A DNA stretch of 41,030 bases from an uncultured Acidobacteriia bacterium (GTDB taxonomy: Bacteria; Acidobacteriota; Terriglobia; Bryobacterales; Bryobacteraceae), in assembly GCA_903929755.1 (NCBI GenBank), contig CAIYVZ010000128.1, positions 1 through 41,030 of the forward strand. Reading direction: 5' to 3'. The notes below the pieces were generated by a model. That model saw nothing but the letters and a program-made list of their open reading frames with translations. It ran no database searches and was not told the origin of the DNA. Both the position numbers and the translations under genes were made by a program. This document shows, piece by piece, positions 24,701 through 26,869 of this stretch; the stretch's first letter is position 1; each line of letters begins with the position of its first letter.

Positions 24701-26869
24701 ACCACCCCAGGAGTCCGGTGACTCCAGGATCCCAACCTTAGCGAGACCGCGCGCGGGGGCCTGCGATGGAGCAGCACCAAGGGCGATGAGCCATACGCGT
24801 GCTTTTGCCGTTTGCAGGAATTCGAGGAATTCCACCGCTTGGGCAGTGGAGTCCGCAGCTGGATCCAGGACCCACAGGATGTTTTTTTCAGACACCGATG
24901 CAGTCCCGGCAGGCAGCAGGCTTCGGAGTCTCTCGTGAAGTTCGGGTTGACGACAGTGTATCTCGAAGGGAACGGAGCTTTTCCGTTTTACCGAAGGTCC
25001 TGCCGATTCCCAGTCGGTCACGTAAAACCATTCCGAATGAGGCGATGGCTGCGATTCGGGCGTCGGCGGAGGCACGGCCGCAGACCAGTAGCGTTTCCGT
25101 TCGAAGGCATACGTCGGGAGCCGGACGATGCGCCCCTGGGCCAGGATGCCGCGCCAATCGAGCCGGGCACCGTCTCTGTACAGCGTTGCGATAAGGTCAG
25201 CGTCCGGTTGATCCGGAATGGCTGGGGCTGTTGGGTATCCGGTCAGGGCGCGGGAAGGGATTGGCGCTGTCGACAACTGGTCAGCTAATTCCAGGGCGGA
25301 AGCACCGGTGACAGCCACACGGAAGCTGAAGTGGGAACGTCCGGCGTTCGCTGTGTAACAGATATCAGCGACTGGCTCGCCCGTTTGGCGGAGGAACTCC
25401 GCGTAGCGCGCCACCAGCAGAGCGAGGGCTCCGGAACTCTTTGCCGACAAGCACAGGGCATATCGACAGGCCACCGAGGGCTTAATCTCCATTGGCGGTG
25501 GGGGTTCCTGCAACACGATGTGGGCGTTGGTGCCGCTGAGGCCAAAGGCACTGACACCGGCAATGCGCTTTCCATCTGGCCACGGACTGAGGCGGTCGAC
25601 GACGCGCAGTGGAATATTTTGCCAGTCGATGTGTGGATTGGGCGTCCGGAAATGAAGATGCGGCGGAATTTCGCAATGGTGGATCGCCAGCACCGTCTTG
25701 ATCAGGGAGGCCATGCCCGCAGCGGCTTCGGCATGTGCGATGTTGCTCTTCACAGCGCCGATGAGCAGCGGCGTGTCGCGCTTTTTAAAAACTGAAGCCA
25801 GTGCGTTGACTTCGATCGGATCGCCAAGCGCAGTGCCTGTACCGTGTGCTTCCACGTATGCGACGTCCGAAGGCTTGAGACGAGCGTTGTCGAGGGCCTG
25901 GCGGATGAGTTGTTCCTGCGCGAGTTCGCTCGGTGCAGTGAGGCCTGAACTGGGGCCATCATGGTTGACCGCCGAGCCGCCGATGATGGCGTAAACCCGG
26001 TTGCCATCGCGCTGTGCGTCGCTCAGCCGTTTCAACACCACGACACCACAACCTTCGCCCTGGCCGTAGCCATCGGCGGAAGCATCGAAAGTTTTGCAGG
26101 TGCCATCGGGAGCGAGCGCACGCATGCGACAGCGTCCAATGGTGCTGAACGGGCTTAGAACGAGGTTGACACCGGCAGCGAGTGCCACCGTGGATTCGCC
26201 GTTGCGTAGACTTTGACAGGCCAGGTGAATGGCGACTAATGACGACGAGCAGGCGGTGTCAGTCTGAATGCAGGGTCCCTGAAAACCGAACACGTAAGAG
26301 ATCCGGCCGGCCGCGACAGAGCGGGCGGTGCCGAGCCCGGCATAGGTGGAGTAGGTCTCGGGTTTCTGGGGAGATGTGGTCGTTATGAGGTAGTCATCTG
26401 TGCTGAGGCCGAGAAAAACACCGGTGGGTGTCTTGCGAAGACTGGCAGGGGGGATCCCCGCATCTTCCAGCGCCTCCCACGTCACTTCCAGCAAAAGGCG
26501 TTGTTGCGGGTCCATGCCCTCAGCTTCGCGCTCCGAGATGCTGAAAAAAAGAGGATCGAACTGGTCGGGACGTTGGCGCAAAAATCCACCACGCCGGGTG
26601 TAAGCACGGTTCTCGATGGAAGGATCGGGATCGAAGAATGGTTCGAATTCCGGGCGATCGGCAGGCACGTCGCCGATGCCGTCGACGCCGTTGCGGAGCA
26701 TGGTCCAGAACTCGGCAGGGCTATCCGCCAGTGGGAAGCGGCACCCGATGCCAACGATGGCAACCGGCTCGTTGCGGGATCGCTGCAAAGCTTCCAGCTT
26801 GCCGCGCGAATCGCGCAATGCCTTCAGGATATCTTGCGTGGACGGACTCGCAGGCGGTGGCTCAGTCAT
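15710..26869 (-). CDS. Hybrid PKS/NRPS C: KS-(no AT)-KR-ACP / KS-AT-ACP-aminotransferase-C-A-PCP
   Basis: Residue numbers count from the in-frame TTG at 26875. ATG (residue 3, 26869) is the likelier start and gives an ATGACTGA overlap with the upstream stop. Residues 10-33 form an N-terminal docking helix. Module 1: KS (36-455; Cys209, His344, His381), no AT, KR (785-955; Ser909, Tyr922), ACP (Ser1068). Module 2: KS (1135-1555; Cys1308, His1443, His1480), AT (1646-1945; Ser1737, malonyl-type HAFH 1834-1837), ACP (Ser2048), class III PLP aminotransferase (2245-2650; Lys2491), C (2664-3090; HHTISDG), A (3105-3605), PCP (Ser3656). The order ACP-aminotransferase-C-A-PCP is that of mycosubtilin MycA, iturin ItuA and microcystin McyE, which make beta-amino acyl units. 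The A pocket reads VDWTVSLADK, two changes from the beta-alanine code VDWVISLADK. Module 2 has no KR, as expected if the beta-ketone is the aminotransferase substrate. Confidence 0.97.
15724..15728 (-). promoter_or_regulatory. Strong internal Shine-Dalgarno for NRPS D
   Basis: GGAGG on the minus strand lies six bases before the ATG at 15715-15717, inside the 3' end of the previous coding sequence. It is the clearest ribosome site among the operon junctions and fixes this start even though the two genes overlap. Confidence 0.6.
18926..20143 (-). other. In-line beta-aminotransferase domain (PLP, class III)
   Basis: Residues about 2245-2650 of protein C resemble glutamate-1-semialdehyde aminomutase-type transaminases: NSGTEA phosphate-binding turn (2340-2345), SYHGHSD (2368-2374), [10 protein letters not shown] (2461-2470) and the PLP lysine in TYGKVPGGG (Lys2491). 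In the iturin, mycosubtilin and microcystin systems the matching domain converts a beta-ketoacyl-ACP into a beta-aminoacyl-ACP. All expected key residues are present, so activity is likely. Confidence 0.92.
20378..20481 (-). repeat. Tandem 72-base-spaced repeat in the ACP-aminotransferase linker
   Basis: A 32-base sequence occurs identically at 20378-20409 and 20450-20481, spaced by exactly 72 bases (24 codons). It encodes the repeated segment [10 protein letters not shown] in the Ala/Pro/Thr-rich linker between ACP and aminotransferase (about residues 2132-2166). The frame is kept, so it is a recent in-frame duplication that lengthens a flexible linker. Confidence 0.9.
25085..25511 (-). other. 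AT-excision scar in the first module of protein C
   Basis: After the KS ends (near residue 455), the usual KS-to-AT linker is present ([37 protein letters not shown]). At about residues 535-556 the sequence passes straight to the post-AT linker ([20 protein letters not shown]). The about 300 residues holding GQGSQ, GHSxGE and HAFH in the sister module (1646-1945) are absent with no frameshift. The KS keeps Cys209, His344 and His381, so it should still condense, but the extender unit must be supplied in trans. Confidence 0.88.

Follow-up and report, generated by a model that had tools for sequence, protein, structure and literature searches.

Polyketide synthase (PKS) assembly lines that mix cis- and trans-acyltransferase (AT) modules are a catalogued class, with 122 + 351 of 8799 given in the portion of the catalogue at hand (PMC10394414). 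In the haliamide PKS-NRPS of Haliangium ochraceum, as far as the excerpted report goes, a stand-alone malonyl-type AT carrying an APFH motif and encoded elsewhere in the genome has been proposed to fill in (PMC6274090). With such lines catalogued (PMC10394414) and haliamide as a close precedent (PMC6274090), the rarity that a preliminary description implied for the AT-less module treated here was, on the available parts of both sources, overstated. Excerpts from the barnesin study report that omitting the native FabD during production in E. coli cut output only slightly, from which its authors infer that the E. coli homologue covers for it (PMC13096860). An AT-null module 6 of DEBS was rescued by the malonyl-CoA:ACP transacylase of S. 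coelicolor, according to the passages available (PMC6164871), and trans-AT linkers and LINKS are treated in sections of PMC11907408.

We analysed a stretch of 41,030 nucleotides from an uncultured Acidobacteriia bacterium (hereafter, the window), whose assembly line is encoded on the minus strand. Three of its four PKS modules carry an AT, as the preliminary description had stated and PF00698 (Pfam) hits bear out. These are protein A (32346..37691; KS-AT-DH-KR-ACP; AT at 35109-36062, with GHSVGE and VPYH), protein B (26862..32345; KS-AT-MT-KR-ACP; AT at 29739-30662, with GHSVGE and HAFH; the upstream candidate donor) and the second module of protein C (C2), while the first module of protein C (C1) has none. 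AT-less and AT-bearing modules thus coexist in one line, as in mixed cis/trans-AT systems, with C1 retaining its ketosynthase (KS) and acyl carrier protein (ACP) active-site residues in the window and in the orthologous cluster of the genome G420 described below; a canonical trans-AT PKS lacks ATs throughout, which this line does not. Downstream of protein C lie protein D (12430..15717; C-A-PCP by Pfam) and protein E (4121..12427), an NRPS with four condensation-type stretches, two A, two PCP and a thioesterase (Pfam). A stand-alone thioesterase-like gene (PF00975) adjoins the NRPS end on the plus strand (3407-4159). Protein A differs from B and C2 in its AT motif, VPYH instead of HAFH, and no loading module was found ahead of protein A within the window.

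Protein C is encoded by the minus-strand frame 15710-26875 (3721 aa counted from a TTG codon, with ATG first appearing at codon 3, position 26869), with the domain order KS-KR-ACP-KS-AT-ACP-aminotransferase-C-A-PCP. A Pfam scan found three PP-binding stretches in it and one Acyl_transf_1 stretch, located in module 2. The C2 KS (22196..23473; Pfam and alignment) is followed by the C2 AT (21086..21940; GHSVGE and HAFH), which is the nearest candidate donor and part of the same polypeptide as C1, and then by the C2 ACP and the class III aminotransferase, C, A and PCP domains (15800..20830; Pfam).

Module C1 has the order KS-linker-KR-ACP, the AT being absent and both flanking linkers kept. Alignment with C2, A and B showed that about 290-300 AT residues are missing and that a bridge of about 16 residues stands in their place: the KS-AT linker ends near residue 540 (...ELADQLSTA) and the post-AT helix resumes near residue 557. 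The preliminary description, which had the KS-AT linker run into the post-AT linker within 25085-25511 (protein C residues 455-597), was right in coordinates and residue numbers, and the alignment of modules 1 and 2 that it proposed maps the junction to residues 541-556 (25208..25255), followed by an 18-residue stretch through to a 12-residue motif ending at about 598. On the minus strand, the module comprises the KS (25499..26770; residues 36-459, Cys-His-His present), the KS-AT linker domain (25256..25492; residues 462-540), the bridge, the post-AT linker helix with the 12-residue motif (25082..25207; residues 557-598), the structural and catalytic parts of the ketoreductase (KR; 23996..25078; residues 600-960, Pfam KR at 785-952) and the ACP that needs charging (23552..23755; residues 1041-1108 with boundaries set by judgement, PF23297 at 1061-1104). 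No stop interrupts the frame and no N occurs in the window, in keeping with the earlier statement that there is no frame damage. The KS-AT linker carries no insertion relative to those of A, B and C2 and is predicted to adopt its full fold in a structure model.

Reading the sequence also upheld the claim that the active-site residues of all three C1 domains are kept. The KS has TACSSS, HGTGT and NIAH, with the Cys, both His and the Lys in place; the KR has its active-site Trp and Tyr; and the ACP has DSL. Unlike in a non-elongating KS0 module, the catalytic His is not lost, since HGTGT and NIAH are both kept.

Orthologues were sought class-wide, using a profile of four AT-less junctions against 399 genomes (those four match by construction), and in the family, using C1 residues 506-1110 against 237 genomes. 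Both searches led, among the matches listed, to G420, from the same family but another genus, whose 30.5-kb contig parallels the window gene for gene. Two genes adjoining the cluster, encoding a phytoene-desaturase-like FAD protein (37688-39370) and a DUF481 protein (39422-40309), are kept in G420 with 56% and 50% identity, respectively. Identity is 72 and 53% for protein A (split over two frames in G420), 61% for B, 59% for the C2 part of C, 58% for D and 58% over the first ~320 residues of E, after which the contig ends. Across 396 residues, the two C1 KSs share 76% identity; the C1 linker-KR-ACP lies in a separate frame in G420, with a run of N around the KS end. The G420 junction is clean and has no AT, and the KR and ACP motifs are intact in both genomes. 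Because this orthologous module, from an independent assembly, lacks the same AT, C1 is neither an assembly artefact nor a chance product, and the collapse of the KS-AT region that the preliminary description had allowed for is not borne out.

The pN/pS ratios between the window and G420, which are rough because synonymous sites are saturated, were lowest among 12 domain comparisons for the C1 KS (0.21; B KS 0.25, C2 KS 0.28). They were 0.28 for the C1 ACP (C2 and B ACP, 0.33-0.35), 0.36 for the catalytic part of the C1 KR (B KR, 0.27) and 0.34-0.43 for the B and C2 ATs, and highest for the C1 linker (0.51) and the C1 post-AT/KR-structural part (0.58). The catalytic part of the KR is less conserved in C1 (59.6% identity) than in B (69.4%). 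As judged from these ratios, the C1 KS, KR and ACP are under purifying selection, in line with the earlier impression that the module is functional; rough as they are with saturated synonymous sites, they give no support to a dead or decaying module.

In a 70-row KS tree, the C1 KSs of the window and G420 form one clade (100/99), whose sister (100/98), from the congeneric genome G006, is a KS that has an AT. The C1 KS falls inside a 52-row group, separated by a 100/100 branch from the remaining 18 rows, which include 12/12 reference trans-AT rows, four AT-bearing rows, one stump and the AT-less KS of G098, the last adjoining the AT-bearing rows. A quick 104-row tree placed C1 alike, and the two trees rule out a transplanted trans-AT module. 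By its position, the C1 KS is of cis-AT descent and lies outside the trans-AT KS lineage. The view that this is not an ordinary trans-AT system thus holds, with the KS grouping among cis-AT KSs and no dedicated trans-AT found in the 97.89% complete genome. C1 genuinely lacks an AT, is conserved in that form, and represents a module of cis-AT origin within a mixed line. Among 18 AT-less KS rows outside trans-AT loci (including L035, L037 and L056, from genomes beyond the AT inventory), 11 changes are needed and at least 5 are forced by starred branches. A single origin for all AT-less modules of the set was rejected (AU p 2.2e-56, for a group chosen by trait), although some AT-less KSs form well-supported cross-genome clades (G133 with G330; G330 with G325). 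The placement of the C1 KS and the multiple changes indicate that the AT was lost in the C1 lineage and that such losses are recurrent.

In 16 PKS-bearing genomes, we paired 50 type I KS places with AT places: 37 had an AT, 2 a stump and 11 none. Excluded from this count were 17 of 67 KS rows, which were frames of 414-471 aa with a single KS and presumed FabF-like, a G053 AT row under the cut-off, and the genome G098, which the KS search did not cover. Four of the 11 AT-less places lie at frame or contig ends and were not scored as clear (G014, G037 and two in G133); the seven clear cases are in G000, G006, G070, G082 (2) and G133 (2). Domain scans added AT-less KS modules in G098, G420, G330 and G325 (two), G330 having four beside three AT-bearing ones. 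Loss boundaries vary from case to case. In the G082 counterpart of protein C, the AT and linker are missing in both modules, and G006:C58 has the order KS without AT-ACP-KS-AT-ACP, as in protein C. The stumps (G033:C61, frame at 135758, L068/L069; G006:C64, frame at 414114, L142) follow cis-AT-type KSs. Each has lost the GHSxG serine motif along with a large part of the AT but retains intact post-AT linkers; they are apparently dead and resemble steps in AT decay. Among the matches listed for the class-wide junction profile, one in G431 is an AT-less junction on a contig that also bears an AT. Loci of Gordonia and Mycolicibacterium that seemed AT-less from match lengths proved, by domain scan, to have ATs in those modules.

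Two further arrangements were observed. G098:C15 (frame at 40336; L143, L070) encodes tandem ATs in KS-AT-AT-DH-KR-ACP, followed by C-A-ACP; downstream, at 51132, lies a small KS-ACP protein that has no AT and that the spare AT might serve. In G082:C65 (frames at 3205 and 8153; L060), a module is split after its AT, the second protein starting, before KR-ACP, with a part that we take to be luciferase-type monooxygenase-like.

A genome-wide PF00698 search of the window genome (212 contigs, 97.89% complete) found four ATs: those of A, B and C2 and one 344-aa stand-alone frame. The search for a stand-alone AT suggested in the preliminary description thus returned only a FabD-clade protein, and no dedicated trans-AT was found in this 97.89% complete assembly. 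Each of the 16 genomes has one AT frame of 308-417 aa away from any KS, and G014 has an additional AT inside a 1409-aa frame. Nine of the genomes examined combine AT-less modules outside presumed trans-AT lines with PKS ATs, in an AT-bearing frame on the same contig as the AT-less module in G000, G006, G082, G098, G133, G330, G420 and G325 and on other contigs in G070. In a 51-row AT tree, the FabD clade (18 rows, 99/99) holds the sole stand-alone AT found in eight of these nine genomes, as well as those of G045 and G355. In G325, the remaining one of the nine, FabD is joined by another stand-alone AT-like protein (G325:C2:281054-281887, L179) on a very long branch and without GHSxG. A trans-AT clade (5 rows, 100/98) comes from G353, G164, G437, G178 and G196; a third discrete clade (4 rows) is presumably acyl hydrolase-like; and the cis ATs are separate. 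A dedicated trans-AT shares a contig with AT-less KSs in five of the six presumed trans-AT genomes (the same five and G169, assigned by full-length AT-less junction matches), G169 having only a third-clade AT there, which indicates that the search detects dedicated ATs where present. In G045 and G355, whose AT-less modules are a KS-KR-ACP in an NRPS and a KS-ACP-aminotransferase, respectively, FabD was the sole AT that the genome search found; these modules, if they function, have to depend on FabD or on self-loading. In the FabD of G355 (403 aa; frame at 245768 of contig G355:C1, L157), the AT profile match is broken in two by an insert.

We propose that C1 is an extension module of cis-AT derivation from which the AT has been cut out, leaving linkers, KS, KR and ACP in place. 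Malonyl would reach its ACP in trans, with FabD, the housekeeping malonyl-CoA:ACP transacylase, as the most likely donor; KS C1 would condense the chain from protein B with the malonyl unit, and KR C1 would reduce it before it passes to KS C2. From the sequence comparisons, we infer both continued elongation and FabD, rather than a neighbouring AT, as loader, and regard this reading, with modest confidence, as the more probable one. Should C1 elongate, it has to draw its malonyl unit either from beyond the module or through self-loading; FabD is the likeliest source and a neighbouring AT the next. The options first listed for C1 (a discrete AT, a neighbour's AT or skipping) are thereby supported and narrowed, since the sole discrete AT found is FabD. 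Against the FabD route stand the HAFH-type ATs of C2 and B close to the C1 ACP, the small drop in barnesin output when the native FabD was omitted, the second stand-alone AT-like protein in G325, which has AT-less modules, and the less conserved catalytic part of the C1 KR together with the high pN/pS of the C1 linker and post-AT/KR-structural parts.

Loading of the C1 ACP by a neighbouring malonyl-type AT, of C2 on the same polypeptide or of B upstream, is possible but rather unlikely. Both ATs carry GHSVGE and HAFH, the C1 ACP ends about 27 residues before KS C2 (by judged boundaries) and so must visit KS C2 beside the C2 AT, and G006:C58 shares the arrangement. However, AT-less modules occur in G045 and G355, where no PKS AT was found, and the G082 counterpart, with both modules AT-less, would need cross-protein action. 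Natural and engineered precedents, in the portions of the reports available, use discrete enzymes, and the mostly open literature yielded no natural neighbouring-AT case. Skipping of C1, or its use only to hand on the chain unextended, seems improbable: the C1 KS has NIAH in place of the commoner NIGH, and non-elongating KS0 modules exist in trans-AT lines, according to part of PMC5764310, but the Cys, both His and the Lys of the KS are present, the KR and ACP motifs are intact in the window and G420, and all three domains appear to be under purifying selection.

A dedicated discrete AT could be missed in an assembly of 212 contigs and 97.89% completeness. Concealment in an unassembled gap is nevertheless a shade less probable than skipping: no such AT was found in G420, G082, G006, G070, G098, G133 or G330 either, and in G353, G164, G437, G178 and G196 it shares a contig with AT-less KSs. 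Self-loading of the C1 ACP from malonyl-CoA, which the source study, in the part available, subtracted as background to FabD, is the least probable of all and very unlikely.

If FabD does charge C1, primary and secondary metabolism would share a loading enzyme in an otherwise self-loading line, extender prediction from AT motifs would fail for such modules, and the repeated losses would offer a route to study how a cis-AT module becomes trans-loaded. The less expected part of our results is recurrent AT loss without a dedicated trans-AT. We tentatively suggest, while holding it somewhat short of probable, that cis-AT lines in this class of bacteria repeatedly shed malonyl-specific ATs because FabD stands in. 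A natural cis-to-trans conversion needing no new gene would then run through successive stages: a module with its AT intact, one whose AT is truncated and dead, one from which the AT has been excised between retained linkers, and one that has lost the linker as well. The mostly open literature searched yielded no account of ATs being lost repeatedly in one clade with FabD standing in.

Assembly lines of the iturin/mycosubtilin type have AT-less KS-ACP-aminotransferase modules and the AT FenF. The window resembles them in having an AT-less module beside a class III aminotransferase, but differs in that its aminotransferase module, C2, has an AT and is preceded by the AT-less module, and in that no second stand-alone AT was found in its genome. 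The best Foldseek match of the C1 structure model is the cis-AT-type KS-AT of curacin CurL (PDB 4mz0; 50% identity), which retains the AT that C1 lacks. BrnF of barnesin A, like C1, is an AT-less KS module with FabD, encoded outside the cluster, as sole candidate and indicated donor, but in the passages at hand it is not embedded among AT-bearing PKS modules (PMC13096860). PipC of pseudotetraivprolide likewise is an AT-less module with an AT docking region and no typical trans-AT in the genome; FabD transfer to its ACP was measured in vitro, and the available passages mention no AT-bearing module, unlike the window line (PMC12828459). The haliamide line, in the sections available, has AT-less modules 2 and 5 among AT-bearing modules, as with C1, but is a different assembly line with a known product and malonate incorporation shown by feeding (PMC6274090). 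C1 belongs to a known kind of which few similar cases are known, in an unusually clear comparative setting, with the AT-bearing sister of its KS present in a genome of the same genus (G006). Restoring an AT-null module with a free malonyl transferase has already been done by engineering, and C1 looks like a natural, conserved counterpart of that experiment.
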